A DNA stretch of 64,000 nucleotides from Heliocidaris erythrogramma (Eukaryota; Echinodermata; Echinoidea; Camarodonta; Echinometridae): NCBI GenBank assembly GCA_025617745.1, contig CM046866.1, positions 13,771,725-13,835,724 on the forward strand, written 5' to 3'. How positions within the stretch are numbered: position 1 is the stretch's first letter; the number at the start of each line of letters is the position of its first letter. The translations under genes were made by a program, and so were the position numbers. Below are positions 3,506 to 61,292 of the stretch, one piece after another. The notes under the pieces were generated by a model. It saw only the letters and a list, made by a program, of their open reading frames with translations. It did not search any database and had not been told where the DNA came from.

Positions 3506-3507
3506 TT

Positions 3508-3541: not shown

Positions 3542-3584
3542 AATTTGTGAATTAACGGCAAAAACAAGCACATCAACTTTTTGC

Positions 3585-3720
3585 ATTCCTCACCTGGGTA
3601 AGAGGGGCGATGTAGATTAATGTCTTGCCAAAGGACGGTAGTGTCCAGGCGGGACTCGAAGCGCGAACCATGTGATGCACAGTCCGGTGACGTATTCAAT
3701 ATACCACGACACCTCTACAT
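3585..3720 (-). mobile_element. tRNA-derived SINE, 5' head and body
   Basis: On the minus strand a tRNA-like head (box-A-like TGGTATATTGAATACG; box-B-like GGTTCGCGCTTCGAGTCC) is followed by CCTTTGGCAAGACATTAATC and a 'CTTACCCAGGTG' block. The same body block, with GGGTACC downstream, occurs in the SINEs at 39635-39880 and 43084-43920. This copy lacks the ATT-rich tail. It is an old fragment; transcription is not implied. Confidence 0.6.
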
Positions 3721-4284
3721 ATTGGTCCGATTCATGGTAGAACACTATACCGCTCGATCGCCCATGCATGCTCGCAATGTAACACGGGAGTTTGGCCAAC
3801 TCGATTTCAGTTGTACACAATATGGTGCACTTTATGTTTTGTTATAATTATGCTAGCTTGCCCAACAAAGCAATGTGCCATATTGCTATCTTCTGGAACA
3901 GAATTGGCCAAACTCTGTGTTTAGCTGAATGTAACAGCACGATGACGAATGTAACATTAGAATCACGAATTCTGGGGCTGGGGCTGGGGCTAAAGAAAAT
4001 TTACTGATAGAAAACTGCATTTAAAAAACATTGTCTGTTTGTTAATTTTCAACATTTCAGAGCCTTTGATTCTGTTTGTAGAAGACCGACACCTTGAAAG
4101 ATGTGTGGATAACGGCCAGTCATGAAAATACTGTTAAAGATATGTACAACGATGGGGCACACTGGCAGTTCGGACGGGATCAAACGGGGCTGAGTTTTAA
4201 GCCTCACCCTCCCCCCTCATTGTGACTTCCTTGCTGAAATTTACAATCCATGTTCTAATAAAACAGGTGAAGTTAAATTAACCT

Positions 4285-4452
4285 GGGGTGTTTCATAAAG
4301 CTGTTCGTAAAGTTACGAATGACTTTACGAACGACTGGAACATGTTCTTGGGTGCTATACTAATCAGATTCTCAATAATTTAGCACAAGAACTGATCATC
4401 AGTCGTGCGTAAAGTCGTGCGTAACTTACAAACAGCTTTATGAAACAACCCC
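4285..4452. mobile_element. MITE with 'GGGGTGTTTCATAAAGCTG' inverted ends
   Basis: The left end GGGGTGTTTCATAAAGCTG is matched at the right by the complement (CAGCTTTATGAAACAACCCC). Inner subrepeats CGTAAAGTTACG and CGTGCGTAAAGTCG give a strong hairpin. It is about 168 bp and non-coding. The GTTTCATAA motif resembles the ends of the 'GCGTTTCAT' MITEs, so both may belong to one superfamily. Confidence 0.8.
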
Positions 4453-4596
4453 CTGGTCTAACTTAGACCACTGATATGGTTTCATGCCAAGCTTTTTATT
4501 CTGCACAGATTACTGCAATACTGTTACAAGATAGAATGAATCCAGTCATTAGAATGATTTCAAATCACCTGATTTCTGTTTCTTCATTTACTTAGA

Positions 4597-4640
4597 TTTC
4601 AGATTTCAGATTTAGATTTTATTTCATTATGGTTAGAACA
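4597..4640. other. Possible retroposon tail
   Basis: TCAGATTTAGATTTTATTTCATTA resembles the block at 61813-61840 (TTTAGATTTAGAATTTATTTC then ATTA). Two distant copies ending in the same T-rich string suggest the 3' tail of a minus-strand retroposon. No coding part is attached at either place. Confidence 0.3.
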
Positions 4641-4730
4641 GTTAAAGATTTATCGTAATTTCCATGGGATGAGGAGGTTGACATTTGGCACTCCATAAAT
4701 CACTGTTAGTAAGGGATGCGGCATCATCAC

Positions 4731-4750
4731 CCCCCCCCCCCCCCCCACCC
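4731..4750. repeat. Poly-C tract
   Basis: A run of about 16 C followed by ACCCCTCCCC. Other long C/G runs are at 23797-23814, 31632-31649, 42490-42527, 48043-48063, 52785-52800, 53386-53400, 55643-55655 and 56436-56448. Confidence 0.9.
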
Positions 4751-4933
4751 CTCCCCAAACAGCTAGGCCCCGTCAGCGCCCCATCACCTCCAGTCCAACA
4801 CCATCTCAACATATTCCACATAACATCTTAATGAGTTGTATGCAGACCACCGTGGTGATGCGGAAGACCCCTACTGAGGATTAGGCACATCCATTCAAAC
4901 AGATCAGACACAACTTAGCTGTCAGACGCTTCA

Positions 4934-4996
4934 GGGGAGCGTTTCATCAAGGGTTTTGTCAGTGATTGTTACCGAAAACTGTTATAAGCTACTGAA
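4934..4996 (+). mobile_element. Truncated 'GCGTTTCAT' MITE
   Basis: Matches the first about 60 bp of the 2510-2648 element (GGGGAGCGTTTCATCAAG through GTTATAAGCTACTGAA) and then stops abruptly. The right half and second inverted repeat are missing. Confidence 0.75.
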
Positions 4997-5481
4997 TTCG
5001 GAACTTTGATCACGAAGATTTTTACATGTTTGAAGGTTCATATCAAATGTTATAACAACTTTTCCCCAAATCGCATCATAGTCAGATCGTGCAGTGTGCG
5101 TCGGGCTTTAGACGAAGTATCGAAAACTAAAACTCCACTAATACGGCAGGGATTCTTTTTAAATATGAAATTCAGCTAGCAATAGAAAGAGTTCACTATA
5201 GATTCGATTAAAGTGTATACAAAATACTTTCAATTTATTTAATATGGAATTTCTTTTCAAATTTCACATCAGTTTCCTTTCCTGTAACTTTCTCTAAAAG
5301 TATACAATCCTGCATTATCTCACCTTTCCGTTAAAAAAATCTAGAATCGGATAAATCTTTCGTCCCAACGTACGTATGCAGCAGCTTGCACACGTAAGAT
5401 CTTGTAAAGTATCCTTTCTGAAAGGGAAGAAGAGTGGATATTCTAATGTAAAGTGTAATGTTGTTATCGTTATCATATTAA

Positions 5482-6052
5482 AAGTTCAGGCCAAGTCCAC
5501 CTCAATATCAAGTTGATTTTAATAAACGGAGTAAATTTAAACAAGCATAACAGTAAAAATTTCACTGAAATCGGATGTAAAATAAGAAAGTTATGGCATT
5601 TTGAAGTTTTGCATTATTTCATGAAACAGTGCATAACATGGATAACATGGGCGGTATGCAAATGAGTGAACCGATGATGTCATGCACTCACTTTTCCTTA
5701 TGTATTTTATTATATGAAATATAACATATTTCATTTTTTTGCTTCAATAATGTAAAACATGGTTTGACTCCATATGGAACATGTAAAATCATCATTATTG
5801 TAAGTTATTTTCATACAAGGAAGGGATTCTTTATAATATCACATCTATAAAAATTGAACTATTTGAAATTTCATATATTAAAATACATACCGCCCATGCT
5901 ATGCATATCACTGTTTCATGAAATAATGCAAAACTTAAAAATGCCATAACTTTCTTATTTTACATCCGATTTCAGTGCAATTTTGACTGTTATGCTTGTT
6001 TAATTTTACTCTGTTTATTCAAATCAACTTGATATTGAGGTGGACTTGGCCT
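5482..6052. mobile_element. Fold-back element flanked by TTAA
   Basis: Arms of about 190 bp are near-perfect inverted copies. The left arm starts near GGCCAAGTCCACCTCAATAT and the right arm ends with ATATTGAGGTGGACTTGGCC. Each arm contains the ACTTTCTTATTTTACATCCG motif or its complement. TTAA occurs at 5478-5481 and 6053-6056, consistent with a TTAA target-site duplication. It has no ORF. It belongs to the same structural group as 31232-32847, 39119-40091 and 41218-41707. TTAA duplications are known for piggyBac and Kolobok; the Kolobok assignment is inference. Confidence 0.75.
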
Positions 6053-21561: not shown

Positions 21562-22721
21562 CAGAGCTGCCAACCTTGTGCAACCAAAAAAAGGAATCAT
21601 GATGGCCAAAAAAAGGAATTTACAGCAAAAAAAAAGGAATACCTTCAAACAAACTTAAAACCTCGCGCGACATACTTCCATTGCAGAAATAATGCTCATT
21701 TCTTATGCTGAAATGTCTCGTCACATTTTTCCCTTTGATGTGTGCTCACAGTCACGCATTACTTGGGGGGGGGGGTTCAAGGGCAGCGCCCTGATGGGAG
21801 TCTCAAGGGGGAACGTCCCCTTGAAACTGAGAAAATAGCACTATGGAGGATTGGAGGGGCATTATTTAGAGGCCATTAAATCAGCATCTCCAACTCCAGA
21901 GACAGAGTCCAAGGTTGATTTTCAAAAACATAAATGTACATGTAATAGAACTAGAAATTTTCAAAAAAATATACATGTACATGTAATAGAACTAGAAGGA
22001 AAATTATACAAGTGTCAGGAATATTGCATGACCTGCTACACCGCACTGGTTTTGATAAAAATGCTTTAGATTTTGGATTTCATTTTTTTTTTTTTTTTTT
22101 GAAAATCTAAATGAGAACTTACACATGCAAAATGCAAATTCAACGCCTTTTGTGATTGGCTTTATGACAGGAAATCGTTGTTCGTACTCCTCTTTAAACT
22201 TCTGTGACCGTTTTCCACTAATTTTGATCAAATCCTCTCCAGTTTCGCGAAATAATTCCGTTAAATCCACGATCGTGTCAAAGGCCGTGCGCAGTTCAGC
22301 AAGCGGTAATACATTGTCCCACATATAGAGATCGGTGCTGTGCTTACATGCGTTTTGCATGGGTCGCCACGCTACATGGGCACCGCTGCATGCGAATAAA
22401 ACATGTTTTCGCAGTCACACGACCCAGTCACACGACGGAAGAGCGATCGAAACTTGCGTTATTTCAATGATATACTGTACATGTACATACCATCGGTCAG
22501 TTTGGGGTCGGTTTCGTCGGTGGGACTGTAACATTACGTGTATCGATAGCTCAAACCCGGAAGTCATAGACAACACTGTATTTTCGTGTACTAGTACACA
22601 GAACACACGCAAACACTTAAAAAAAAAAAAAAACGTATTTCATGAAGAAAAAACGGAATGCCGTAATATTGGTTAAAAAGTGGTAATAATTCTGTCAAAA
22701 ACGGAATGGTTGGCAGCTCTG
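21562..22721. mobile_element. TIR element with 6-bp target duplication, copy 1
   Basis: CAGAGCTGCCAACC at the left and its complement at the right are flanked by CAGGTG at 21556-21561 and 22722-22727. Near both ends the sequence carries AAAAACGGAAT-like or AAAAAGGAAT subterminal repeats. It is 1160 bp. A minus-strand exon-like ORF lies inside (22124-22360). The superfamily is not identified; few superfamilies make 6-bp duplications. Confidence 0.7.
22124..22360 (-). CDS. Exon-like ORF inside the 6-bp-TSD element, unknown function
   Basis: The frame encodes about 79 residues from an ATG at 22360, including LYMWDNVLPLAELRTAFDTI and TGEDLIKISGKRSQKFKEEY, and runs into an excellent 5' splice site (TGCATGT then GTAAGTTC). 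The composition (amphipathic, charged) looks like real protein. In the second copy a one-base difference extends the frame 19 codons upstream. It may be the first coding exon of the element's own protein or captured host sequence. No family recognised. Confidence 0.4.
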
Positions 22722-29404: not shown

Positions 29405-30565
29405 CAGAGCTGCCAACCTTGTGCAACCAAAAAAAGGAATCATGATGGCCAAAAAAAGGAATTTACAGCAAAAAAAAGGAATACCTTCAAACAAAACTTA
29501 AAACCTCGCGCGACATACTTCCATTGCAGAAATAATGCTCATTTCTTATGCTGAAATGTCTCGTCACATTTTTCCCTTTGATGTGTGCTCACAGTCACGC
29601 ATTACTTGGGGGGGGGGGTTCAAGGGCAGCGCCCTGATGGGAGTCTCAAGGGGGCAACGTCCCCTTGAAACTGAGAAAATAGCACTATGGAGGATTGGAG
29701 GGGCATTATTTAGAGGCCATTAAATCAGCATCTCCAACTCCAGAGACAGAGTCCAAGGTTGATTTTCAAAAACATAAATGTACATGTAATAGAACTAGAA
29801 ATTTTCAAAAAAATATACATGTACATGTAATAGAACTAGAAGGAAAATTATACAAGTGTCAGGAATATTGCATGACCTGCTACACCGCACTGGTTTTGAT
29901 AAAAATGCTTTAGATTTTGGATTTCATTTTTTTTTTTTTTTTTTGAAAATCTAAATGAGAACTTACACATGCAAAATGCAAATTCAACGCCTTTTGTGAT
30001 TGGCTTTATGACAGGAAATCGTTGTTCGTACTCCTCTTTAAACTTCTGTGACCGTTTTCCACTAATTTTGATCAAATCCTCTCCAGTTTCGCGAAATAAT
30101 TCCGTTAAATCCACGATCGTGTCAAAGGCCGTGCGCAGTTCAGCAAGCGGTAATACATTGTCCCACATATAGAGATCGGTGCTGTGCTTACATGCGTTTT
30201 GCATGGGTCGCACGCTACATGGGCACCGCTGCATGCGAATAAAACATGTTTTCGCAGTCACACGACCCAGTCACACGACGGAAGAGCGATCGAAACTTGC
30301 GTTATTTCAATGATATACTGTACATGTACATACCATCGGTCAGTTTGGGGTCGGTTTCGTCGGTGGGACTGTAACATTACGTGTATCGATAGCTCAAACC
30401 CGGAAGTCATAGACAACACTGTATTTTCGTGTACTAGTACACAGAACACACGCAAACACTTAAAAAACAGAAAAAAACGTATTTCATGAAGAAAAAACGG
30501 AATGCCGTAATATTGGTTAAAAAGTGGTAATAATTCTGTCAAAAACGGAATGGTTGGCAGCTCTG
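29405..30565. mobile_element. TIR element with 6-bp target duplication, copy 2
   Basis: Ends CAGAGCTGCC / GGCAGCTCTG and CAGGTG duplications at 29399-29404 and 30566-30571. The minus-strand exon-like frame here is open from 30261 to the GTAAGT donor near 29967. Confidence 0.7.
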
Positions 30566-44940: not shown

Positions 44941-45574
44941 TCCTGACGGGTACTGTATGGATTGACTCATGCCGCTGTATGGGAGCAGCATGGTTTGCGC
45001 ATGGTTAAGACCCCGGCCCCCAATTCTAAAAATTGTTGCGTTAAACATGACTTGAGTAACATAGATTGCAATCTTTATGTTAACAAGTCATTTATAACGC
45101 GATACAAGTTCATCAGCATACTGGACACAGCCATTTCCATTAGACTATCACAGTACGAAATAAGAAATAAGAAATATTGATTCGATTTCGTATCTACATG
45201 GATGCAAGTCACCTTACAGATTTTAAGCATTTCATGTGTGTACAGACAAACATTTTGATGACGCAGCTCAATATTCAAATACGCTTCTATTTTTCTTCCT
45301 AAATCACTATGTTGGCTGATCAAGTAATCACTTTCATCGTCTTCCTATTATGACTCAGTACATGATCAAAATTGATAAAGTTTTTTTTAAATTGAACAAT
45401 ACGAGCCTTATTTTGTGATAAGACTGATGCTAATTATTGTATACATGTTTACTAATTTATGCATGTTTCTGTTCACGTGCAGGTTTCTGTGCGAAATAGT
45501 TATTAACCAGGAGTTTATTAACTATTTAATGCACACACCTGCTTTATATAATGGCAATCTGGCAATCTGGCAAA

Positions 45575-45760
45575 CTGGGCGTTGTGGCGTGCGCCTGTAA
45601 TCTAGCTACCAGTGGAAGTTATAAACTGATTCAGTGACCCAGGTTAGAGACTGAGTCACGCCTTTCGGATGGTGACGTTAAAGGTCGGTCCCAGAGGTAA
45701 ATAATCATATCTGATTGATACACGTCTGTAAAAATCCAATTACACACACACACACACACA
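45575..45760 (+). mobile_element. SINE with SRP/Alu-domain-like 5' end, copy 1
   Basis: It begins ACTGGGCGTTGTGGCGTGCG then CCTGTAATC-AGCTACC, which lines up closely with the 5' Alu domain of metazoan SRP (7SL) RNA, including the TGTAAT U-turn segment. A box-B-like AGGTTAGAGAC follows, then TTTCGGATGGTGACGTTAAA, GGTCGGTCCCAGA, and a (CA)n tail. It is about 185 bp. Second full copy at 54534-54727; a 3' half is duplicated at 45946-46041. Confidence 0.65.
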
Positions 45761-46226
45761 ATCTCTACGGATGAAAATCACTTTGCATAATTAATTGTTG
45801 CGTTGTCAGACAAGCATCTGACTATATAAATTGTGCTTTAAATGTCTAACAGATTCCAAATATGCTTTAGGAAATCAATTCTAAAGAGAAAAGTTTGTAA
45901 GTTGTTACCTTTTGTAATGATAATTTTTTCCTCTGCAGGCAGATCTTCGGATGGTGACGTTAAAGGTCGGTCCCAGACGTAAATAATCATATCTGATTGA
46001 TACACGTCTGTAAAAACCCAATTACACACACACACACACAATTTCTACGGATGAAAATCACTTTGCATAATTAATTGTTGCGTTGTCAGACAAGCATCTG
46101 ACTATATAAATTGTGCTTTAAATGTCTAACAGATTCCAAATATGCTTTAGGAAATCAATTCTAAAGAGAAAAGTTTGTAAGTTGTTACCTTTTGTAATGA
46201 TAATTTTTTCCTCTGCAGGCAGATCT
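45664..46226. repeat. Tandem duplication, two 282-bp units
   Basis: Units 45664-45945 and 45946-46226 both start TTCGGATGGTGACGTTAAAG and end CTCTGCAGGCAGATCT. They are almost identical apart from CA-repeat length. The duplication boundary lies within the SINE, so it happened after the SINE inserted. Confidence 0.9.
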
Positions 46227-46826: not shown

Positions 46827-46885
46827 TTTTCTTCTTCTTCTTCTTCTTTTTTGCTTCTTCTTCTTCTTCTTCTTCTTCTTCTTCC
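46827..46885 (+). repeat. (TTC)n microsatellite, 5' flank of LINE-A
   Basis: About 18 TTC units with one TTTTTTG interruption. It ends where the first LINE begins. Matching TTC tracts follow both LINEs. Confidence 0.95.
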
Positions 46886-47070
46886 TTTCGTAACGTACGT
46901 ACTTTCTGAGAGCTCTTAAGTAAGTTGGATTTTTACTTAAATATTGACCTTTTATGGTTCACGGACATTTATTGATACGTTTAGACCATTTCCACCAAGT
47001 TTTTTTGTATTTCTTATCGTATTTTAAGCTTTAGTTTGAATCTCAATTTTCTGTGTTTGTTGCCTGTAAC

Positions 47071-48306
47071 ATGGCCGGTGTGGCCGTTCAGGCCTCCCGG
47101 GACCTGCCGGGGACCAGCTCGGCTGACGGGTCTAGGCCGGCTACCGAGCCGTCTAAGCCGTCTAAGCCGGTAAGCAGAAACAATGGAATTTCGTTCAGTG
47201 CAGCAGCCGACATCTCAATTCATGAATATGTAAAAGCTTTTTCACTGACTACACCTGCTAGTCGCATTCTGTCGGCTTCACGCATTAGTAATCAGCGCAT
47301 TGCTATTTATCTCCGTTCAAAAGAAGACGTTCTAAGTGCTGTTAACAATGGACTGACACTTCGTAATACTTTCATTCAGGTTTCACCTCTTTTCTTGCCG
47401 AGCACTCGGCTTGTTCTCTCAAATGTATATCCTGAAATTACAAATCAAGTTCTATCGAAACACATTGCAAGTTTCTGCAAAATAGTCTCCCAAATTCGTC
47501 CAATTCCTTTAGGTTTCAAGGACAGAGACTTTGCACATATCATTTCGCAGACAAGTCATGTTTTGTTAAACCCCAATGTTACTCCACCCAAGCACATTAA
47601 TTTTTCTCACGAGGGCGCCAATTACCGCGTTTTCCTAGAGTACCTTTATGCATGGCGTTTGAATTCTTTCTATTGAGAACACCCAGGTGCTCATCGGAAT
47701 TGAAAAGAAATGTTGCATAGCAGTGGAAACAAAATGGCGTTCAAATCATGAGTTGTCGCTACTCTCTTTATATACCGGTAGGTACTCTACGTTTTCCTAT
47801 CCACAGAGTCAGTACACTGCTTTCAGTGTGGGGAGGTGGGACATATCAGCCGGCAATGCAAAAAGGCTTTACCAAAGGAAATGCATGATCGCCATGATCA
47901 ACACGAAACTCGTGACCGAGCCTCCCCAAAAGGCAAATCCGACCCCAAACATCCCCCAAAATCCCCCAAAAAGATAAAAACCAACCCAATCTGAAATTCA
48001 AGATAGCTCCGTTCAAGAAGGCCGGTCGGGAGGTGCAAAGCCGACCCCCCCCCCCCCCCCCCCCAACGTCGGCTCATGTCTTCGCCCTTGCCCGTTCAAA
48101 AACGCTCGAATGCAACCACGGTAGGCGAGTCCTTACCCGGCCCTTCAAAAGCACCTCCCTCTGCCAAAGAGATTGCAAAGAAGTTTACCCCTAACATACC
48201 TGGACTTGTCCGTCAACTACGACCTTTGCGAAACAGTGCACTGTTTAAGAAAAGCACTCAACAAAGAATACAAAAATTAATCCGAAAACTGGAAGATTGT
48301 TTGTAA
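47071..48306 (+). pseudogene. LINE-A ORF1 (nucleic-acid-binding protein), frameshifted
   Basis: Starts at ATGGCC (47071) with a Pro/Ser-rich N-terminus, then a conserved region (ILSASRISNQRIAIYL, IRPIPLGFKDRDF). An extra about 150 bp near 47640-47795 breaks the frame. A single CCHC knuckle, CFQCGEVGHISRQC, follows at about 47815-47860 in another frame. Beyond a C21 run the C-terminus IAKKFTPNIPGLVRQL...IRKLEDCL closes at 48306. ORF1 proteins of this type coat element RNA. The same modules are in LINE-B. Confidence 0.75.
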
Positions 48307-48321
48307 TTATTCACTTTCGTC

Positions 48322-51300
48322 ATGGATAATATTATTTTAGTGCATTTTTTTACTCTACTCATTATGACACTATCATTTCTTACACTTAACACAGGAGGTT
48401 GCTCATCTGCAATGAAAAATGCCTCAATATTTACTTACGTTTTATGCCTGATATTATCTTCCTTCAAGAAACGAATAATTTATCAAATAGTTCCACTTGT
48501 TGGAATGTTTGGTCTTCTTATAATGCTTTTTGTTCTCCAAGCCATGCTCGCGGTTCTGGAGTAACCACTTTAGTTAAAAATACTAAAATGTGCATCATAG
48601 ATAATTCTGTCATTATTGATGGTCATGTTTTGTACGTTAAGATTGATTTTAATAGTGTCATATATCATTTATACAATATTTTAATCCCTCAAGATGATAA
48701 TTTTGCTATTACAGTAATAAATTCATTTTCTTCTCATTTAGCTTCACGCACAGAAGGCATTATATTAATTGGAGGTGCACACTAAATCCCTCTCTTGATA
48801 GTTTTCACATGTCTACTGAACATAAAGTAAGAGTCTCTAATGCGCTCAAGCATGCCATTCATCAAGCTCAGGTGTGAGATGTCTGGCGCAGAATGCACCC
48901 TTTTAAAAAACAGTTTTCTTGGCAAAGGAAGAACCCTCATAGCACTTACCAAGTTTCGAAGGCTAGACTTGATCGCTTCTATCTACCCATTAATATAATG
49001 CCTTCCATTGCTTCTTGTTCAATTATACCTTGCTCCCTTTCTGATCATTCTGCCATTCTCTTGAAAATTAAACTCCCTTCATCAAAACAAAGAGGAAGCG
49101 CCTATTGGCATTTCAATAACTCCCTATTAGAAGATGAAAACTTTATAAGTATTATCACATATTTTTGGTATGATTGGCAAAAACAAAAAGCCTGCTTTCC
49201 TGACCTTCTTTCGTGGTGGGATTTCGGCAAATCCCATATTAGATCCCTCAGTCAAATGTATGGCTCAAAAATAGCTCATGAGAGAAGAGAATGTCTTTTG
49301 AATATTAACAAAATTATCAATGAACTGTATTCTGCTCCAGACCTCACACATGACATTCAACAAACACTTGCTGAACAAAGAGATGAACTCAATATTCTTA
49401 TAAAAAATCAAGCCAAAGGAGCCTTAATCAGATCGCGATTCAAATATTCCTTAATATAATTCTGCAAGATCTTAATAAACTTGACCCAGAAGTTTCGAAA
49501 AATCTCGATGCAGATTTAACAATTCAGGAGATTACTACTGCTGTTAAAGAGCTCGGTTCTAACAAATCGCCTGGTTTAGATGGCTTATCAACCGAATTTT
49601 ACCAAACTTTTTGGCCCCTCTTGAAACATGATTTTCTATCTGTTATAAAATTTGCCATTACTTTTGGAACTCTTCCACGATCTTTTTCCAGGGCTGTTAT
49701 TACTCTCATTCCAAAGAAAGGAGACCTGTCAGACATTGCCAATTGGCGACCAGTCTCCCTTCTTAATAATGATTACAAAATATTTGCAAAAGTACTTGCT
49801 AATCGATTAAAACTTTGTGTAGATGATTTAATTCATGAAGACCAAACATATTGCGTACCAGGTCGAATAATTTATGATAATGTAATTTTGATTCGAGATG
49901 TAATTAGTTTTGGTAATAACAATAATTTACCTCTTGCTGTTGTTAGTCTTGATCAGAAGTTAGCCATAATTATTTATTCAATACTATGAAAGCCATGGGC
50001 TTTGGTGATTTATTCTTATCTTGTATCAAATTATTGTATATAAATGCTGAAAGCCTTGTCAAAGTATGTGGCTCTTTGACTGCACCTTTTTCTTTTAAAA
50101 AAGGTATTCGCCAAGGTTGCCCTCTATCGGGTCTCCTTTATTCTATAGCTATTGAACCTTTCCTCAATTGTTTAAGACGAAATCTTCAAACCTCTGGCGT
50201 TACCCTACCGAATACAAACAAAGTTTGTTCTGTTTCAGCTTATGCTGACGATATCTCTATATTTGTCACCAATGATTCAGGGTTCAATACTGTGTATAAC
50301 TTATTTAGTAGTGCTTCTAATGCCTGTCTTAATTATAATAAATCTAAAGGTTTGTGGGTCGGATCTTGGTCCAGACGAAGTGACAAACCACTAAATTTTC
50401 AATGGAACAATGAAGGGCTCGTTCTCTTGGGAGTTCACATTGGTATAAGTAACACTTTTATGAATCAAAATTGGATAAAATGTAAAGATAAATTGAGCAC
50501 AACTCTTTCGCGATGGATGTCTCTTGCGAACATACTTTCTTTTAAAGGCAAAATACTAGTTGCTAATCAGTTAGCTGCTTCCAAAGTTTTTCATTGTCTT
50601 GCAACTCTCTCTCCGCCTAAACATATTTTAAATGAACTCCAAAATCTACTAGTCAATTTCGTCTGGTCCAACAAAAGACCCCTCCTTAAAAAACAAATTC
50701 TGTATCAAGAAATTGAAAAAGGTGGACTTGCATGGTCTGGTGTGCCTCCAAGCACGAGTTTTGTCATTTCGTTTTAGATTTCTCCAACGTTTCCTCAATC
50801 TCTGCACACACCCTGCATATGTGTTCTGTTCTTACAATTTAAAAAATTATATGAAACTGGGATTTGATTTTCAGTTATTTTTCATTTATCGTCTCCCAAA
50901 CTCCTTCATAGTTTATCATGTTTTTACTCCGAAATACTGAGTGCTTGGTTATTTTCCGGAGCTCACATAGAAAGTACGTATTTTACACTCAACCATGTGT
51001 TAAACATTCCGTTAAGCTATCCTCCTTTGGTATCACATAAGTTAGAGGGCGCTGCGGCTTTCCCTGCTAGACTTTTCGCTCGTGGAACCAAACTTATCAA
51101 ACACCTTGTCAACCTCAACAATGGTATTTGGCTTCCAGCTGAAGACTTCGTCCACTCTTGTTCTCTTCTTCAACGCTCATCTCTCCGCCTCATCGAACTT
51201 GATCTCTCTCGCTTTCACAAATCACTCTCCAGCATCTTCCCCATGTTTTTCTGTGCAGACGGACTCCGACATTCTAGCCTCAACCTTCATGAACTTGCTG

Positions 51301-51998
51301 CTAACATCATTTCTCCGTTTTCTGTCATGAACAATGACAATATGAACATGCTTATTGCTTCCTCCAAGTCACTATACCGTATCTTCAATCGTTCTATTAA
51401 CTGTTTGTCTTCATCACTTACTACTCCTTGGCATGACAACGGTACACTTAAACCTTCAACCTCTGTAAACTGGACTGCGGTCTACCATCTACCTTCACTC
51501 AAAAAAGATGGAGACATACAGTACAAACTGTTTCATAACGTAATACCTTCACTTCCAGTTCTTCATCACCTGAATCCCAACATCGCGCCTAACTGTGGAA
51601 GTTGTGGCAAAAGAGGAACAATACTTCACGTCTTCTTCAGGTGTCCGTCTCTGAATCTTGTTCATCGACTCTTATCCCGTCTCCTTCCCACAGTTACCTT
51701 TGACTTTGCTTTATATTGGACTTTGGTTCCTCATGTGCGAAGTTGCTGCAGAGATGCTGTGCGCCTCTCTAACTATCTCATTATTAGTCTGAAAAGCACT
51801 CTTTATTGGTTATACCGCACTTCTCGGTTTGTCGATCCTACGCCCATTTGGACACTTCGAATAAAAAATAAAGTTGTCCTTGACTATGAATTTTACAAAC
51901 TTCAAAATAATTTGCGTGCTTTCAAAAAGCGGTGGTCAATAAACGATACACTTTTTGTTATGAATGATAACAGTGTGTCACTCACATGGTTGATATAA
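48322..51998 (+). pseudogene. LINE-A ORF2 (endonuclease-reverse transcriptase), multiply frameshifted
   Basis: Endonuclease parts in order: LSFLTLNTGG, PDIIFLQET (catalytic Glu region), IILIGG followed by loss of the expected GDFN, LDRFYLP and SDHSAI (catalytic His region). The linker QMYGSKIAHERR follows. A deletion relative to LINE-B occurs near 49445. The RT runs from NKSPGLDGLSTEFYQTFWP through IPKKGDLSDIANWRPVSLLN, a frameshift near 49985, then RQGCPLSGLLYSIAIEP and YADD. The C-terminal domain contains CGSCGKRGTILHVFFRC (CCHC-type, zf-RVT-like) and ends SLTWLI. Inactive as assembled. Confidence 0.85.
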
Positions 51999-52344
51999 TT
52001 TTCCTTTATTGTCTTGACTATAATTATAGCATATTATGAATTGTTTACGTCATGTAAAGTCATTTTAATGTGGTTGCGTTCTTGTTTATGAATACCGTTT
52101 TGAAGTTCATATGAGTTTTATTGTTCCTTCAAATTAATTTCATTTTTTTGAAGTGCATATTGGAATCGGTCTTCTTTCAAATTGTAGAAGTTATATTTTC
52201 CCTTTTCAGTCTGGCATTATCGTATTTGTAAATTCACAGTCTTTATCCTTTGTCTGTTTTCTTCATGTTTATATTGTTAATTTTTATGTATAGTTTTTAT
52301 AAAGCCTGTAAATAAAGTTCTATTTTGAAAAGTCAAAAAAAGTC

Positions 52345-52364
52345 TTCTTCTTCTTCTTCTTCTT
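52345..52364 (+). repeat. (TTC)n between LINE-A and LINE-B
   Basis: Six to seven TTC units serving as 3' flank of LINE-A and 5' flank of LINE-B. Confidence 0.95.
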
Positions 52365-52572
52365 TGGAGGCACCAGCGTTTTTTCTTAGTGCTCCCGAGT
52401 AAGTTTATTTTTCGGCTTTTTAGACCCTATTGGTCATTGATATTTCTGTATTAATAGGTTGGTGTTACTTATATCGACCATCTGGGCCTAATCCACCCTT
52501 GTAGTTTTAATTTTTGGTAACATTTTAACGTTTTTTTGAGTGTTTTGTAAACACTGTTTTAGCTGTGCCATT

Positions 52573-54075
52573 ATGGCCAGCGCATCAGTGTCTGCTCCCC
52601 CGGGCCTGCCCGAGGCGAGCACAGCGGCTGCGTCCGCTAAAGGTAGACCTGCTCCTGCTAACGAGCCGTTCCACTCTATTAGCAGGAACAATGCAGTTAC
52701 TTTCAATACAGAACCAAATATTTCTATACAATCGTACATTGTTAGTCTTATTGAGAACATTCCTGCCAAGCGAATTCTATCCCCGCCCCCCCCCCCCCCC
52801 ACTCGGAGGTCGAAGGGACCGCATGCGTGTTCCCAAAATCTCCGGTAAAGGGGTATTTTTTGGGCGACACAATCCGGCCCGTGAATTGTAAAAAAAGGGG
52901 GTGTTTTTTATCTTTCACCCGGAGATTTCATTAAAAAAGGGGGTGTTTTTCTTTCTCTCTCTCTCTCTCTCTCTCTTCGACACCTGAGAAATTAAAAAAG
53001 GGGGGTTATGAAATATCTTGAAAAATTGATCAAATCCCAGGATCAAATTCCTGAAATTCCTGCTAGTTTTGATAGTTCATTCAGCCAGGATTATTTCATT
53101 TTGAAAAGTAGAAACACTGGCCCCCATATCTTCCAAGGTATTGTAATGACAGCTTACTTGGGAGGGGGGTTGGTGTCTGTCCTGAGATATGGGGTTGGAA
53201 TGAGAGCTCACCTGAGATAGGGGGGTACATTGAGCAGTGTTCTGAATTTAGGGGGGTCTCCAAGGCAGGAAAAGCCCGCGCAAAGCCCGCGATAGGGGGG
53301 TTCAGAAATTTTGGCAGCCCTGAGATAGGGGGGTGCTTTCAAAGGGAGGGAACAAGCATACGCGTACCCTAAATAATACTGAGTGTGGGGGGGGGGGGGG
53401 ATTCTATCTGCATCGCGCATCAGTAACCATCGCATAGCTGTCTATTTTGACACACAAGAGTCCATGCAATATGCTGTTGCCAAAGGTTTTGTTCATAATG
53501 AGACTTTCATTCCAATCATGCCTTTAGTTCTTCCAACCACAAAGCTTATTTTTTCTAATGCTTATCCGGAAGTTCCAAATTCTGTTCTTTCTAAACAAAT
53601 CCAGTCTTTTTGTAAGGTTGTTTCACCAATACGACCAATCCCTCTTGGTTTCAAAGAGAAACGTTTAACTCACGTTATGTCATTTAGACGCCAAGTACAG
53701 GTACTTATGAATGACAATACCATTTTACCCGATTATATTAATTTTGCACATGCCGGTTCCACCTATCGTGTTTTTTTGTCAACTGACACATCTATGCGAT
53801 GTTTTGATTGCGGTGAGATAGGTCACTTGAGCAGAAATTGCAAGAAGAACAAACTTGAAGAAAGTGGGATGGGTACTGCTCCTGCCCCTACATCCACGCC
53901 CAATCCCCATAAACCCACCAGCAGGACAAATGCCCCTGGACCCTCATCCAGTATCGATCTCGATAGCAACCCCACTGTGGTAACAGATAAGGGACACCCC
54001 GGGAACTGTGGTGTGGCCCCAGAAGTCCAACCCTCTGGCAAACCTGTGGTCCACCTACTGGACTGTATTGAATAA
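52573..54075 (+). pseudogene. LINE-B ORF1, 5' part, split by an insertion
   Basis: ATGGCC at 52573. The frame (MASASVSAPPGLPEAS...) is cut at 52781 and resumes at 53401 with ILSASRISNHRIAVYF, IRPIPLGFKEKRL and a CCHC knuckle CFDCGEIGHLSRNC. It continues to a stop at 54075 within a Pro/Ser-rich tail. The last part of ORF1 is displaced to 56443-57465. Confidence 0.8.
52782..53400. mobile_element. C/G-capped element with 8-bp target duplication
   Basis: ATTCTATC occurs at 52774-52781 and 53401-53408, and removing one copy plus the insert restores LINE ORF1. The left end is a C-run followed by ACTCGGAGG; the right end in complement is a C-run followed by ACACTCAG. Subterminal (A)GGGNACGC(G)TATGC-TGTTCCC-like text is shared in inverted order. 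The interior repeats GATAGGGGGGT and AAAAAGGGGGTGTTTTT. It is non-coding. 8-bp duplications occur in hAT and P-type elements, but the C-run ends fit neither clearly. Confidence 0.8.
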
Positions 54076-54153
54076 TCCACGCAGCAAGCAGACCAAGCGG
54101 ACGTTGAGGGCGAGTGACTTACACAAATTTGTCGATCCTCAATACAGTCCAGC
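54058..54153. repeat. Small inverted repeat at LINE-B ORF1 end
   Basis: CTGGACTGTATTGA at 54058 pairs with TCAATACAGTCCAG near 54140, with a loop of about 70 bp. It may be a local inverted duplication or mark the start of the inserted block that displaced the ORF1 C-terminus. Confidence 0.6.
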
Positions 54154-54533
54154 CAAACCTGCCATCTCCCCCGAATTTCAGGGGGAACTCTCACCGTCGG
54201 GCTCCGCCTATACGATTGTCAAAGCTCCGCTGATTAGCTTATTGCAAATGTCAATCAAGCTGAATGCAAATCGTGGCCGATTAAGTTATAGTCTAAATTA
54301 AAGGCTTTACAATTTATTAAGTTTAATCCAAAATAGATTTTGACATTATTTCTTTAAATTAGTTTAAAAACCGCAGTGAATATTGAATATATATTTGAAT
54401 GAATCAAATCTTCCCTGCCATTTTCTTCTTTGACGGCCATCGCCATCGCCATCGAGCAGCGAGTATATCAAACACCGTGCACCTCTAGCTCTGGAAGTTT
54501 TCACTCACGGCCACTGCACACATGCACACACAA
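54154..54533. other. Inserted or 3'-ORF1 sequence, unclassified
   Basis: No family resemblance found. Includes CGGCCATCGCCATCGCCATC near 54435. Its boundaries relative to LINE-B are not defined. Confidence 0.4.
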
Positions 54534-54727
54534 CTAGGCGTTGTGGCGTGCGCCTGTAATCCAGCTACCAGTGGAAGTTATAAACTGATTCAGCGGACCC
54601 AGGTTCGAGACTGAGTCACGTCTTTCGGATGGTGACGTTAAAAGTCGGTCCCAGACGTAAATAATCATATCTGATTGATACACGTCTGTAAAATCCCAAT
54701 TACACACATACACACACACACACGCGT
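54534..54727 (+). mobile_element. SINE with SRP/Alu-domain-like 5' end, copy 2
   Basis: CTAGGCGTTGTGGCGTGCGC, then CTGTAATCCAGCTACC and an intact box B-like GGTTCGAGACTGAG. After this come TTTCGGATGGTGACGTTAAA, GGTCCCAGACGTAAATAATC and a (CA)n tail. It is a better-preserved copy than 45575-45760 (box B intact). CA-rich sequence also precedes it. Confidence 0.7.
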
Positions 54728-54877
54728 GCATTGTTTTCTTTTGCTAACATTCATTACGGAGCGGTTACGTATGAATATCAATTAGATGATGTCTTACTAC
54801 ATTATCTCGCTCGTTCAGGCAGGGTATTCCGGACGATTTTCTTCGGGGAGTACAGATTAGTGGAGTCGCGCGATCAG

Positions 54878-55935
54878 TAGCCTCTTGTCGAGGCCCTGCA
54901 TGGCGCTGTTGAAATCCTTGGAGATATGGAGGCTTGCGCCGAGGGCCTCTTGACACCTGATCTGAATTTCTTTTGTATTTCATTGTTTTGACGAATATTC
55001 CGACCAAATTTTGGTCGGTGAAAATCATCCAATAAGCGCGAGCTACCATGACGTAATGTTAAATATTCATGACTCGACTGCACGCTATTTCTTACATATT
55101 AATTAATCGCAGCCCAAAATGGTGTTCAACGTTTCTTCCACGACGAGTGATGACGATATTTGTAAGAGCTTAGAATATGCCGCTAGAATGTTGAAGATTG
55201 ACAGATTCAAAGATTTGCAAGTTGATGCAATCAAATCTGCACTTAAAGGACAAGATGTTTTTGTGAATCTGCCTACTGGCTATGGAAAAAGTGTTATTTT
55301 TCACGCGCTATCGCTCTGTGCTGATTACCTCCGTGGGCCAGGGATGGAGAGTGAGACTGCTGCGCTGCTTCGCGAGCTGGGCCTGGGCCAGGCGGATCCC
55401 CGGGGCCTTGCCGGGCAGTGAAGTTGCTGGTAACTCCTTTTTATCAGAATTGATGGAGATGCATCTATTGTTGAACGGTGACTTTTATTGCCCATTCTTC
55501 ATTATTTGTAAATATATGATGATCTCTTGAGAAATATGTACATTTGTCTTATTTCAAATTACCATGGTTTGTAAGCTAGAGATCGAATTCTTCATAATGT
55601 GCTTGTCTGTGAATGTATTTTGAGCAAAAGATTTACGTAATCCCCCCCCCCCCCCAAAAAAAAAATAAAAAAATAATAGACTAGTCCAGAACTGAAGTAA
55701 GAAATCCTTGAGATTTCATTGGCCAATTTGCTGGGCGATCGCCGCGGTTATTTAACTATTCACGTTTTCATTATAATTCAGTAGAAATCGTGCCTCATGA
55801 ATATATAATTCAGGTCGGGTGTCAAGAGGCCCTCGGCGCAAGCGCCTCGGTTTTTCTTGCTCGCTTCGCTCGCCAGAAATTTTGCCTCCATATCGCCAAG
55901 GATTTTAACAGCGCCAGGGCCTCGACAAGAGGCTA
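54878..55935 (+). mobile_element. Long-TIR element, 9-bp TSD, carrying a RecQ-like helicase exon
   Basis: Ends TAGCCTCTTGTCGAGGCC with exact complement at the right. CGCGATCAG occurs at 54869-54877 and 55936-55944. Arms (about 100 bp left, 140 bp right) share CTTGG(A/C)GATATGGAGGC and TTGCGCCGAGGGCCTCTTGA, with about 37 bp missing from the left arm. End sequence and 9-bp duplication match the 558-bp element at 38352-38909. The interior holds the helicase N-terminal frame at 55119-55421. Superfamily best fits MULE-like; alternatively a lineage with its own helicase, as in helicase-bearing Academ elements. Confidence 0.8.
55119..55421 (+). CDS. RecQ-like helicase N-terminal fragment
   Basis: ATGG at 55119 (context CCAAAATGG). 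The frame contains a Q-motif-like FKDLQVDAIKSALKGQ and Walker A VNLPTGYGKSVIF near residues 50-60, continuing HALSLCADYL. This matches the first part of helicase domain 1 of RecQ family ATPases, which unwind DNA 3'-5'. After LRGPG the sequence turns into low-quality Gly/Ala/Leu-rich coding and stops at 55421, so motifs Ia-VI, the zinc-binding and HRDC regions are absent. It is a truncated fragment, or a first exon whose downstream exons were deleted when the element shrank. Confidence 0.7.
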   Translation: MVFNVSSTTSDDDICKSLEYAARMLKIDRFKDLQVDAIKSALKGQDVFVNLPTGYGKSVIFHALSLCADYLRGPGMESETAALLRELGLGQADPRGLAGQ

Positions 55936-55980
55936 CGCGATCAGCGGCTTTCCGCGGTGAGTGGAGTATGTGAATCAATA

Positions 55981-56347
55981 GGGACTTTTAGAATTGCACG
56001 TCCACTTAGTCGACTGGTACGCAAGGACATCATTCTACGCCACTGTGCATGCGCCACTCGCCCTCTCCCTGTCCTCCTCCCTGACTTGCAAAATCGAGAA
56101 CGTGTTCACTTCTTTTTTGCGGTGCTCCGAAATCTTCTACGAAGTTCACGTATATGACGTCATCAGAACAGCTCAACTATTATGCTCATCCGTTGAGTGT
56201 GTACTTCCGGTTGACGTCGACGGTACGTACACGTCGAGTGAAATCTAAAATGATCAGAACTGTAGTCAACATGGGCAGTCGACGACGTTGACATGCGCGA
56301 ATTAGTCGACTGGGACGAAGTACTAGTCCACTGCTTCTAAAAGTCCC
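55981..56347. mobile_element. TA-flanked MITE with GGGACTTTTAGAA ends
   Basis: GGGACTTTTAGAA and complement TTCTAAAAGTCCC, each flanked by TA (55979-55980 and 56348-56349). Subterminal TTAGTCGACTGG occurs at both ends in inverted or direct form. 367 bp, non-coding. TA duplication is typical of Tc1/mariner. Confidence 0.75.
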
Positions 56348-56442
56348 TAATGGCGTGTGTGAGTGTGTGCGGGAAGCGGACGATTAAGAATTAAAATCGG
56401 CCAGTATCTGGACTAGCAAACCTGTTGTGAAATCCCCCCCCC

Positions 56443-57021
56443 CCCCCAACGCCCTATCAGGCTTTTTTCGGATGCAGTTACTAAAAGGAAACAGTCGACA
56501 GAACTCCCAACTAGTAATAATATTTTCACTGTGCTTGCATCACCTACCCCACCAAAGAAACTAAAGAGGAAAATTCCATCCCCTGCACGAGGATCAGAAT
56601 CCCCTTCCCCTTCAACTTCAAGGTCATCTGTCCCTTCCACCCCAAGTTCCATATACAGGTTGACACTGATCCAGATCGGTCTGATGACAGTCAGACAGCT
56701 GACGATGAGTCAGTTGATTGGGCTTCTTCCCTCCCATCAAGTCAAGGTCCACTTTCTAATAATGAATTAATGAAGTTCTTGCGTAAAGTAAAGGGAAGAA
56801 AAAAGCCACTAGAAATAGCGAAGAGATTTACGCATAATCTCCCAGGTCTACTTAGACAGTTGGAACCTCTTAGAAATAGTTCACTTTTTGATAAGAGTGC
56901 TCAACAAAGAATTGTTGTGTTTCGGGGATCGTATTTGTGATGTTAGTCCATACATTAACAATGACGAGTCAATGAGAGGTATATTGAAGTGCAGTTGTAT
57001 ATATAGTTTATTACAGTCAGA

Positions 57022-57057
<36 letters not shown>

Positions 57058-57465
57058 CGGCAGCATACAACATTATCTTGGAAATATGTCTAGCAGGAGT
57101 TGAGCATGTCTGCTCTCTGTGATGGTCAGTCCTGACTCCCCTTCTTCACTATTTGGGGTGCTCTATTTATATCTACAGAAGTATAGGGGGATACAGTCTA
57201 TCATGTGAACAAAATGTGGAGTTCGCATGAAGAGGGGTGAATTCTGCTGGTACCTTACAAAGTATGCATTAATCAAGAAGTTGTCTAAAGGACAAAGGAG
57301 GCTTATAAACAAAAGGGAGATTATGAATTGGTGTATTATGACGAAGGATTTAAATAACATCATAAAATTTGGGAGTGTGGGAACTGGAGTTGGAGGGGGC
57401 TTGTATTGAGAACTATTACATAACAGAATATATAAATTAATTAGAAAGCTTGAAGACAATGTATA
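56443..57465 (+). pseudogene. LINE-B ORF1, displaced C-terminus
   Basis: Resumes after a C13 run with TPPKKLKRKIPSPARGSES (basic, nuclear-localisation-like), and in a second frame IAKRFTHNLPGLLRQLEPL, the counterpart of LINE-A's ORF1 end. It is cut at 56912 by an insertion and completed at 57426-57465 (LIRKLEDNV stop). Confidence 0.7.
56913..57425. mobile_element. Candidate solo LTR
   Basis: The insert begins TGTTGTGTTTCGG and ends TTACATAACA (TG...CA) and is flanked by GAAT at 56909-56912 and 57426-57429. Removing it restores the LINE ORF1 frame. It is 513 bp with a (TA)n run at 57024-57055 and no ORF of note. The TG/CA ends, 4-bp (or 5-bp AGAAT) duplication and length fit a solo long terminal repeat, but no internal retroelement of this family is in the window to confirm it. 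Confidence 0.5.
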
Positions 57466-57529
57466 AAAAAAATCAATATTTTAATGATGGCTATGACTAA
57501 GCACCTCTTCTTTTATATATACTGACCCA

Positions 57530-58021
57530 CAATAAAAAGTACCCACGACTTTATAATGGTATATCATAATTTTTTATATTGACAGACACAGAATGACAAT
57601 GAACCAGGGTGGAAAGATTGACCTTTTATTGAAACATTTCACTAATTTCGGAAGACAATGCTGTCTCTTGTCAGCGCGCATTACAGCGCAGAACACAACA
57701 AGTTGAAAAATGAAAGTCACAGATCAATAGCGTGTGTGGCCACCATATTTTGTTTGCAGACAGGCATTGCATCTGCGACGCATACGCGCACCAGTCTTTG
57801 AATGAAATCTTGTGGAATCCTGTTCCATTTCTCACCCCTCAGGAATGCAGTGGTTAGCCGTGCAGCATGAGGTCGGGCATTATCATGCTGAAAGATGCGC
57901 AGTCCTCGGCTGTTCTGCAGGAATGGCACCAGGTGTGGTCTCAGGATATCGTCCACATAGCGCTGTGCAGTGATGTGAGACTTTCATTTTTTAACTTGTT
58001 GTGTTCTGCGCTGTAATGCGC
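57530..58021 (-). mobile_element. Tc1/mariner transposon, internally deleted
   Basis: On the minus strand 57960-57717 encodes DDILRPHLVPFL, then FQHDNARPHAARLTTAFL, the second-Asp region of Tc1/mariner DDE transposases, followed directly by NRIPQDFIQRLVR, the usual C-terminal block. The catalytic Glu/Asp segment (normally SPDLNPIEHLWD-like) is deleted, as is the N-terminal DNA-binding half. The stop abuts an inverted repeat: CAGCGCAGAACACAACAAGT, complemented at 57992-58011. It sits where LINE-B's endonuclease should be. Confidence 0.75.
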
Positions 58022-58023
58022 CG

Positions 58024-60993
58024 GACTTTGGTAAAATTCATATACAATCTATAACACAGATGTATGGCCGGAGGATATAGCTGGAGAAAAAAGAGAAGCT
58101 CTTATAAGTATAAATAAAAAGATTGATGAACTGCAATCAACATCTTTTTTCACTCCAGATATTCAACAAGCATTAATCGACCAGAGGTGTGAATTGAATA
58201 ATATTCTTAAAAATCGGGCCAGGGGCGCTTTTGTTCGATCGCGTTTCAAACATATCAATGAAACTGTTTTTTAATTTAGAAAAGAACAATTCCTGTGCCA
58301 AGACTATATCCAGAATTCGAACACCTTCAGGTGATTTGTTAGAAGATGAAAAGCATATTAAAGTCTATGTTAGAAAGTTTTATGAAGGTCTATATAAAGA
58401 AACTTTAATAGATCAGGAAGCACTTTCTGACATTCTAGTTAATGTTAGAAAGCTAAATTCAGTGGATGCTAAGGAACTTGATGATTCTTTTACTTTAGAA
58501 GAAGCAGATGCTGCTCTTAAACAACTGAATAAAAATAAGTCACCTGGATTAGATGGATTGTCTTTAGAATTTTTTCAAACGTTTTGGCCTATTCTTAAGG
58601 AGGACTTTTTTTTCTGTAATACAGCATTCTATTAAATAAATTCAGGAAATCTCCCAGGCTCTTTTAGTAAAGCTGTCATTACGCTAATCCCCAAGAAAGG
58701 GGACCTGGCTGACATCACTAAATGGAGACCTGTTTCACTCCTCAATGTAGATTATAAAATTTTTGCAAAAATACTTGCCAATAGACTTAAACAAATTATT
58801 GGTGATTTAATTCATGAAGATCAAAGTTATTGTGTCCCAGAAAGAACAATTTATGATAATTTGCATCTAATACGAGATGTTATCAATTTTGCTAATTTTA
58901 ACAATATTCCCCTTGCTGTTATTAATTTAGATCAGAAGGCTTTTGACAATGTTAGCCATTCTTACTTGTTTTCAACAATGGCAGCAATGGGCATAGGAGA
59001 TCGTTTTATTTCATGTTATTTAATTATTGTATCATAATGCTGAAGGTCTAGTAAAGATTTGTCGATCTCTTACAGCGCCTTTCCCTTTTCAGAAAGGTAT
59101 TAGACAAGGCTGCCCTTTATCAGGTCTATTGTACTCTATAGCCATTGAACCTTTTCTCAATGTGCTGAGGGCTAAGCTCAATGTACATAATTTTTCTATT
59201 TGTAATGGCAATAGGCCTATGAATGTATCAGTGTCAGCTTATGCTGACGACATATCTATCTTTGTCACCTCCAATCAAGGTTTTGATATTGTACAAAAAT
59301 CATACAATTTATTCAGTAAATCATCTAATGCTTGTTTGAATCATGAAAAATCACAGGGTCTCTGGGCAGGGTCGTGGTCTGGACGCACAGACAAACCTCT
59401 CGATTTTAAATGGAACAGTGATGGGCTTGTTTTTCTTGGAATTCATTTGGGTAATAGCAATAACTATATTAATAAAAATTGGGCAGTGTGTAAGGAAAAA
59501 TTAAGAAAGACACTTTTGAGGTGGACATCCCTTTCTTTCGCATTATCATTAAAAGGCAAAGTGTTAGTAGCTAACCAACTAGCTGCTTCTAAAATTTTTC
59601 ACTGTTTAGCTATTTTGTCTCCCCCTCAGTGCGTCCTCCATGAACTTCAAGATATGCTCGTGAATTTTGTATGGTCAAACAAAAGACATTATTTAAAGAA
59701 AACACTATTGTATTTAGAGCCAAATAAGGGTGGATTAGGCCTAGCTTGTCTCCAAGCACGTCTACTTACTTTTCGTTTTAGTTTTATTCAACGTTTCCTT
59801 AATTTGTGCTTGCATCCAGCATATGCACTCGGTTCATATAATTTGTGTAAATACAAAAGACTCAATTTTGATGTCTGAGCTCTTTTTGATTGAGTTGGAA
59901 CCTAATTAGTTTGTCGTCTTTCTATTCGGAAGTATTAGTTGCTTGGAGAACCTCGGGAGCAGTTTTAGCTGCGGCCTCAATTAACCATGTGTTGAATATT
60001 CCTTTAAATTACCCTCGTTTATTTTCTGGTGAGACAGATGATACAAATGCCTACCCTGCACGTCTGTTTGTAAGTGGAATCAAGCTCGTTAAGCATATTA
60101 TAAATCCAACTGATGGCACCTGGCTTCAAGCTGATGATTTCATCTTCCCCTCTGTTCTTCGACGACCATCCATCCGCATTCTAAGCAACGATCTCTCCCG
60201 CCTGCATGCTGCACTTACCAGTACCTTTTCTGCTTTCTTCACGCATCACGGACTTCGACCACGTCTCTTTTCTTCACAAGACCTCACTGCCACAATCAAC
60301 TCTCCATACGCCGCAACGATCGCTAACGATACAAATGTACTTACTTCGCCCACTAAAAGCCTATATCGCATCTTTAATCGCTCTGTCAACTGTCATCCGT
60401 CTACATCACAAACTCACTGGCATGATTCTGGAATCCTCTCTCAGTCGACATACATTAACTGGACTGAAATATATCAGCTGCCAACAGAAAAAAGAGACGG
60501 TGACACTCAATACAAACTTCTTCATAACGTTTTACCATCTCTTCCAATACTCCATCACCTTAATCCAGATATCCTGCCTTGGTGTGGATGGTGCGGTGAG
60601 AGGGGAACAATTTATTATTCATCTTTTTCTCCAATGTTCTGCCATAGAACCAGCGCTGACGTTTCTACATCATCTTATAGCTCGAGTTCTTCCTGATATA
60701 AAAATAGACTTTGAACTCTACTGGGCCTTGGTTCCGCATGCTCTTGGGCGTTGTAGGGAGGCTGTCATCTGTCAAACTATTGTATTATTAGTTTTAAGAC
60801 CACCGTTTATTGGCTTTATCGTACATCACATTTCTATGATCCGCTTCCATTTTGGAAAATGAGAATGAAAGCTAAAATTCTTTTGAATTATGAGTATTTT
60901 AAGTTGTGTAATAACATTCATGCTTTTGAGAGACGGTGGTCGCACAATGTACTTTTTGACCTTAATAATGGGTCACTCACATGGTTAATTTAA
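58024..60993 (+). pseudogene. LINE-B ORF2, reverse transcriptase to C-terminus
   Basis: It resumes with DFGKIHIQSITQMYG (counterpart of LINE-A), then EDEKHIKVYVRKFYEGLY, NKNKSPGLDGLSLEFFQTFW, IPKKGDLADITKWRPVSLLN, RQGCPLSGLLYSIAIEP, AYADDISIFV, and the C-terminal WCGWCGERGTI zinc-type motif. At least four frameshifts occur (near 58085, 58620, 59030 and 60610). It ends SLTWLI stop at 60993. It retains the about 180-bp segment deleted from LINE-A. Endonuclease absent. Confidence 0.85.
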
Positions 60994-61254
60994 AGTGCAA
61001 ATACATTATGCACTTATGTAAGGAGTTCCTGGAGCGTTTTCCCCCCTCAGTTGTATTTTGGTACTTGTTTTATAATGTGATTTTCATTTTGTATTTCAAT
61101 GTTTACAAGTTTTGAAACTGTTATCATTATATGGTAATGTTTTTGTTTTCATTGAAATTAATTATTTTTACATTTTTAATTATTGGAAATAATTTTACAT
61201 ATGTTATTGTAATTAGTTGTAAATAAAGTGCCATTTGAAAAGTCAAAAGAAGTC

Positions 61255-61292
61255 TTCTTCTTCTTCTTCTTCTTCTTCTTCTTCTCCTTCTC
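61255..61292 (+). repeat. (TTC)n, 3' flank of LINE-B
   Basis: About 11 TTC units then CTCCTTCTCC. Third TTC tract in register with the LINE boundaries. Confidence 0.95.

Follow-up and report, generated by a model that had tools for sequence, protein, structure and literature searches.

Insertion at defined sequences is common, if not universal, among long interspersed nuclear elements (LINEs) of the Tx1 clade. Two fish LINEs of this clade with an apurinic/apyrimidinic (APE) endonuclease, Koshi in (TTC)n and Kibi in (TC)n, were reportedly described by Kojima and Fujiwara in 2004, in a paper whose title gives microsatellites as the targets. TRAS and SART, which are APE-type LINEs of the R1 clade in insects, insert in one orientation into a telomeric short tandem repeat and can form head-to-tail arrays. 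Here we describe two LINEs, LINE-A and LINE-B, standing head to tail in one (TTC)n tract of a 64,000-nucleotide stretch of the Heliocidaris erythrogramma genome (hereafter the window), together with their relatives in the same assembly. Like Koshi, to which they are likened by target and not by sequence, they are inserted in a microsatellite; the present genome differs from the Koshi and Kibi cases in that several families occur side by side and mixed-family arrays are documented. With TRAS and SART they share one-orientation insertion into a short tandem repeat and head-to-tail arrays, and they differ in clade, in the repeat used, and in residing in interspersed microsatellites instead of telomeres. 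Microsatellite-targeting LINEs were already known, and the present families are a further example. No description of arrays of these LINEs was found in the literature searched, Kojima and Fujiwara 2004 lying outside it.

KOSHITN1 and KIBIDR elements are named in a fish survey (PMC2684134). Most reported target-specific LINE families fall into the early-branched, Tx1 or R1 clades, three groups in all (PMC4640811). Microsatellites are among the targets listed there as well as in PMC5035012. A parallel for distinct families sharing one target site is offered by Utopia and Keno, both found at the U2 small nuclear RNA gene, with Utopia-1_NVit sometimes inserted in tandem (PMC4640811); they differ in that the target is a gene and that the Utopia endonuclease is restriction-like.

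LINE-A and LINE-B are very probably members of a set of L1-group LINE families whose insertion, by target-primed reverse transcription, is directed to (TTC)n microsatellites. The set spans four families read at both ends (A, B, C and E) and at least two further types of 3′ end (F and G, known from the 3′ motif alone). Nearly all copies that keep their ends have TTC on both sides in one orientation and the unoccupied site is a TTC repeat, the features of a (TTC)n-specific LINE and of sequence-specific insertion. The genome offers a well-populated natural system in which several diverged LINE families, at least one of them apparently active recently, use one simple target.

Two LINEs in one TTC tract

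The window is part of contig C14 of the host assembly (1.06 Gb, 26 contigs). From 46,829 to 61,291 it reads, in order, (TTC)n, LINE-A, a TTC tract, LINE-B and (TTC)n, with both LINEs on the + strand:

46829..46884, +: TTC microsatellite flanking LINE-A on the 5′ side, briefly interrupted by TTTTTTGC (Tandem Repeats Finder)
46886..52342 (approx.), +: LINE-A, both ends kept, frames broken
47071..48306, +: LINE-A open reading frame 1 (ORF1), broken in the window copy; a CCHC zinc knuckle is present in an intact relative
48322..51998, +: LINE-A ORF2, broken, with APE-type endonuclease and reverse transcriptase (comparison with the intact copy P0001)
52311..52342, +: LINE-A 3′-terminal motif, AATAAAGT..ATTTTGAAAAGTCAAAAAAAG, common to at least six 3′-end types genome-wide
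52343..52365, +: TTC tract between the LINEs, adjoining LINE-A at its 3′ end and LINE-B at its 5′ end (21-bp run at 52343-52363)
52366..61252 (approx.), +: LINE-B, both ends kept, several foreign insertions inside
58024..60993, +: LINE-B ORF2 remnant with broken frames, comprising the reverse transcriptase and the C-terminal part
61222..61252, +: LINE-B copy of the 3′-terminal motif (AATAAAGTGCCATTTGAAAAGTCAAAAGAAG)
61253..61291, +: TTC microsatellite flanking LINE-B on the 3′ side (Tandem Repeats Finder)

The initial annotation had placed TTC tracts at the start of LINE-A, at the A/B junction and at the end of LINE-B, on which Tandem Repeats Finder and a scan of the whole window for runs of at least 15 bp agreed: all TTC/GAA runs of at least 20 bp fall in these three tracts, with TTC on the + strand, and two 15-bp runs lie outside them, at 43065 and 44149. 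Its further claims that the two LINEs share a strand and are too diverged to be a duplicated pair likewise held. Because LINE-A and LINE-B are only 66% identical in DNA over ~2.1 kb of their reverse-transcriptase region, the pair is no recent duplication, and its origin from duplication of one LINE is ruled out. Identity rises to 77% across the final ~90 bp. No match to the endonuclease part of LINE-A ORF2 was found within LINE-B by sequence comparison; LINE-B has been stretched to 8.9 kb by other insertions within it.

The LINE-A of the window is ~96% identical, across most of its coding region, to near-identical complete copies elsewhere. A 394-base piece of the 3′ region of A, ending before the TTC, was searched against the assembly as DNA and gave 40 matches. 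Of these, 21 are A copies, including two partial ones, and the other 19 cover no more than the last few dozen bases and come from other families. In five genomic stretches of ~10 kb each that were read for family A, the copies measure ~6.15 kb, with TTC abutting both the 5′ and the 3′ end, and six of them differ pairwise by 0 to 0.3%. Five (C5_2, C5_3, C19, C14 and C16) are complete and less than 0.3% apart, with an open ORF1 and an open ORF2 of ~1,305 codons; the sixth (C5_1) has interrupted frames and runs off the edge of its stretch. From these near-identical complete copies with open frames we infer that the family A lineage probably moved recently, in line with the active TTC-targeting lineage proposed at the outset. 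The ORF2 of the C19 copy (P0001) has human L1 ORF2p as its best match in the PDB (E 1.2e-74, residues 17-882) and carries the Pfam domains Exo_endo_phos (APE-type endonuclease) and RVT_1 (reverse transcriptase), while ORF1 of the same copy has a CCHC knuckle. LINE-A accordingly sits in the L1 group, a placement at group level only, the PDB holding few LINE types. At C16:37.93 Mb (L043), a complete LINE-A copy was seen by eye shortly past what looks like a splice donor in a subtilase-like gene.

TTC as target or as tail

Copies were located through similarity to their 5′ or 3′ untranslated regions (UTRs) or through the 3′-end motif, using queries devoid of the TTC tract apart from the exceptions named here. 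Eighty 5′ junctions (A 17, B 31, C 16, E 16), two of them the window's own, could be compared. In 79 of them, TTC on the same strand runs for at least 12 bp within ~60 bp of the junction, the run at the exception (L050) measuring 11 bp; three family C junctions (L003, L072 and L209) were reached via TTC or a neighbour and are not TTC-independent, and excluding them the count is 76/77. GAA runs of at least 12 bp are absent from all 80. As a control, TTC runs of at least 12 bp occur in 0 of 20,000 random 60-mers from positions 1-46000 of the window, and runs of at least 9 bp in 26. The boundary register is characteristic of each family, with CTTCTT then GCGG in 15 of the 16 E junctions, CTTCTT then AGTGG in 14 of the 16 C junctions, TTCTTC then GGAGG in most B junctions and TTCTTCCA then TTCG in most A junctions.

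On the 3′ side, a pattern for the terminal motif written without TTC yielded 82 exact matches genome-wide (reversed control, 0), which sort by their variable letters into at least six types, A, B, C, E, F and G. Within 12 bases of 66 of these matches stands GTCTTCTTC, reversed patterns giving 0. Among 108 3′ junctions, the TTC run found within 60-70 bp measures at least 12 bp in 86 and at least 9 bp in 97, and none shows a GAA run of at least 12 bp. Many of the 3′ flanks are impure from their first triplets, each locus in its own way.

Unoccupied sites were found in two settings. Two B insertions (C16:7.49 and C9:22.86 Mb) are flanked by an interspersed host repeat, for which there were 95 candidates, 40 of them scored and 40/40 matching. 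Eight sequences were read; one is the filled C9 copy and the other seven are all unoccupied, with a pure TTC run of 11, 14, 14, 14, 14, 17 or 23 bp at the point of B insertion. The second setting consists of two C10 loci ~190 kb apart, whose 5′ flanks are 98% identical (1,016 aligned bases) and whose 3′ flanks are 91% identical (727), and which hold in the same tract and the same orientation a B element in one case and a C element in the other. Each C10 locus is in effect the empty site for the other's element, and whether the pair is a segmental duplication or two separately placed haplotypes is immaterial here. Empty sites and duplicated loci such as these provide before-and-after pictures of insertion.

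Since TTC is present at the 5′ ends, the 3′ flanks carry locus-specific impurities, empty sites hold TTC and the C10 loci are paired in this manner, TTC is the target of these elements and not merely their tail. The opposite reading, in which TTC is a tail made by the element from a UUC repeat at the 3′ end of its RNA or by slippage, would fit the fact that the motif, usually with (A)nGTC, precedes TTC in the junctions read; moreover, the element has possibly added TTC at C9:3.56 Mb, where a pure 3′ run precedes an impure stretch shared with the 5′ flank. Such a tail would not place TTC upstream of the element, nor would it account for 3′ flanks that are often impure from the first triplets or for the TTC tract of empty host-repeat copies. 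The 5′ TTC and the empty sites rule it out as a substitute for targeting, and we regard it as scarcely credible. Two outcomes that the initial annotation had named as fatal to TTC targeting, namely that most copies lie in non-TTC DNA or that TTC occurs solely at 3′ ends, were thus not encountered: copy ends sit in TTC in one orientation, at their 5′ side too, and the empty sites are TTC.

Several observations nevertheless weigh against targeting of TTC or limit the evidence for it. Of the 108 3′ junctions, 22 show no TTC run of 12 bp and 11 of these none of 9 bp (L068, L071, L073, L112, L114, L115, L031, L128, L136, L140 and L149), the 3′ ends of L114 and L115 continuing into CATCTGCTTCTC; 16 of the 82 exact motif matches have no GTCTTCTTC within 12 bases. 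The 5′ junctions are readable solely in copies that keep their 5′ end, and among 20 family C windows predicted from 3′ ends a 5′ end was present in 13 and absent in seven. Some loci look like duplicates of each other (e.g. L060/L066, L108/L109, L114/L115 and L116/L117), and the junction counts are not all independent. Finally, target-site duplications are rarely readable in a microsatellite, with one clear case, of 20 bp at the boundary, at C19:26.31 Mb. From the TTC-poor 3′ junctions it follows that the downstream side need not be pure TTC. Insertion with a loose specificity for pyrimidine-rich DNA, in which TTC tracts are hit because they are common, would suit these 22 junctions and the many 3′ flanks that are impure pyrimidine tracts. 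It is at odds with the almost invariable 12-bp TTC on the 5′ side, with a 5′ register nearly fixed within families such as E and C, and with the lack of any such run among the control 60-mers, and is for these reasons improbable. The junctions suggest, short of proof, that pure TTC upstream is strictly required.

A broader analysis of target-site duplications used 50 of 55 flank pairs. Nine pairs share at least 15 impure bases, compared with a permuted mean of 2.2, and 0 of 200 permutations reached nine; some of this excess can be put down to the self-similarity of a microsatellite locus. A 46-bp shared stretch at C7:32.21 Mb was rejected as a target-site duplication, as it lies away from the boundary, and was read as a local duplication.

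Arrays and a possible growth of TTC tracts

As for the mechanism that we infer for these TTC-targeting elements, the APE-type endonuclease encoded by the element would act as the reader of TTC and nick the GAA strand of the tract, which would fix the orientation such that the coding strand has TTC on both sides. Because an inserted copy would leave TTC adjoining it, the tract would remain a target, and a further element, whether from the same family or a different one, could insert on either side of the first and in every case head to tail. The window would represent one A-B event of such re-targeting.

Eight of the 108 3′ ends run into a known 5′ end: the A-B junction of the window, A-A twice on C5, C-A on C21, C-B and B-C on C8, and B-B twice on C16. 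The search extended 420 bases past the 3′ end where available, or else ~200-320. A ninth junction, B-C at C10:41.0 Mb (L209), came from one of eight longer 3′ stretches, and two more arrays were viewed from the 5′ side (L042, with another family before A, and L087, with a B-like end before B). These counts are lower bounds, the search having covered the 5′ signatures of A, B, C and E. Reading of the target on a single strand should by itself place neighbours head to tail, with no extra mechanism. We do not claim a special mechanism for arrays: chance re-targeting would give a few per cent, against the 8/108 observed. The chance estimate supposes, very roughly, 2,700-5,700 TTC tracts of at least 24 bp genome-wide, extrapolated from 29 tracts counted by eye in 100 listed hits spanning 11.6 Mb, out of 19,592 overlapping hits in total.

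Arrays could also be built by tandem duplication, or by unequal crossing over from one TTC tract to another. On C5, the A copies are 0-1 substitutions apart in ~6,100 bases (plus 10 gap positions for the first copy), compared with 15-18 substitutions from copies elsewhere, and the junction tracts are identical at 24 bp; on C16, three B copies are evenly spaced at 5.74 kb. Both arrays fit duplication, and for C5 it may be as likely as repeated insertion. The junctions A-B in the window, C-A on C21, C-B-C on C8 and B-C on C10 mix families, which duplication of one element cannot yield, and duplication is thus unlikely to be the main source of the arrays. The proposal that repeated use of one site builds arrays therefore stands for mixed-family arrays and is uncertain for the same-family arrays of C5, with its near-identical copies, and C16. 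The findings suggest that dispersed microsatellites can become head-to-tail LINE arrays through nothing more than strand-specific targeting.

The TTC on the two sides of the elements is unequal. Across the 58 5′ and 87 3′ junctions that fitted the patterns of the script, the pure TTC run abutting the element has a median of 25 bp at the 5′ end versus 13 bp at the 3′ end (Mann-Whitney p 3e-6). Two filled copies of the host repeat have pure runs of 39+18 and 15+28 bp, versus 11-23 bp in the seven empty ones. At C4:53.03, C12:41.62 and C20:17.09 (the last by eye), the impure stretch that opens the 3′ flank recurs in the 5′ flank, where additional pure TTC separates it from the element. The question is raised whether the elements only exploit TTC tracts or make them as well. 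One tentative, on balance doubtful, answer is that these LINEs create or enlarge their own landing pads, each insertion leaving extra pure TTC chiefly on the 5′ side, so that arrays would seed themselves. A simpler reading of the asymmetry is that the endonuclease needs four to five pure repeats on the upstream side of its cut and favours long tracts.

Other families and other repeats in the window

Searches with the 3′ and 5′ ends of B gave at least 41 and at least 34 matches, respectively. In the C-terminal part of ORF2, A is 60% identical to E and 52% identical to C. The 3′-terminal motif usually closes with (A)nGTC ahead of the target; the A-run before GTC varies, with a length of 3 to 10 in 83 of 87 cases, which could reflect slippage at the start of reverse transcription. 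Some B copies, e.g. those at C20:4.03 Mb and C10:41.01 Mb, are ~97% identical to the window B at the 5′ end and only ~80% at the 3′ UTR, a mismatch that may stem from exchange of the 3′ UTR between subfamilies. Two family F copies (L153 and L154, at C1:72.50 and 72.52 Mb) were seen by eye to end just upstream of tRNA-Gln-like genes.

Two features within LINE-B were noted by eye. An insertion at 52784-53404 has C-rich and G-rich ends and is flanked by an apparent 8-bp repeat, ATTCTATC. At 55119-55400, in a block inserted into LINE-B, lies a frame that resembles the start of a RecQ-like helicase domain.

Outside the LINEs, the first ~45 bases of a repeat at 45574-45631 (+) match the 5′ domain of the signal recognition particle (7SL) RNA (Rfam RF00017, E 3.2e-6, 31 bits, under the gathering score of 70). 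The repeat looks like a short interspersed nuclear element headed by 7SL, and a second copy was seen by eye near 54535-54590 (+). It adjoins a 280-bp tandem unit at 45664-46226, the units being 98% alike. The same tandem-repeat pair occurs at 21918-22436 and at 29762-30279, 7.8 kb apart, and because it occurs twice, that segment of the window seems to have been duplicated.

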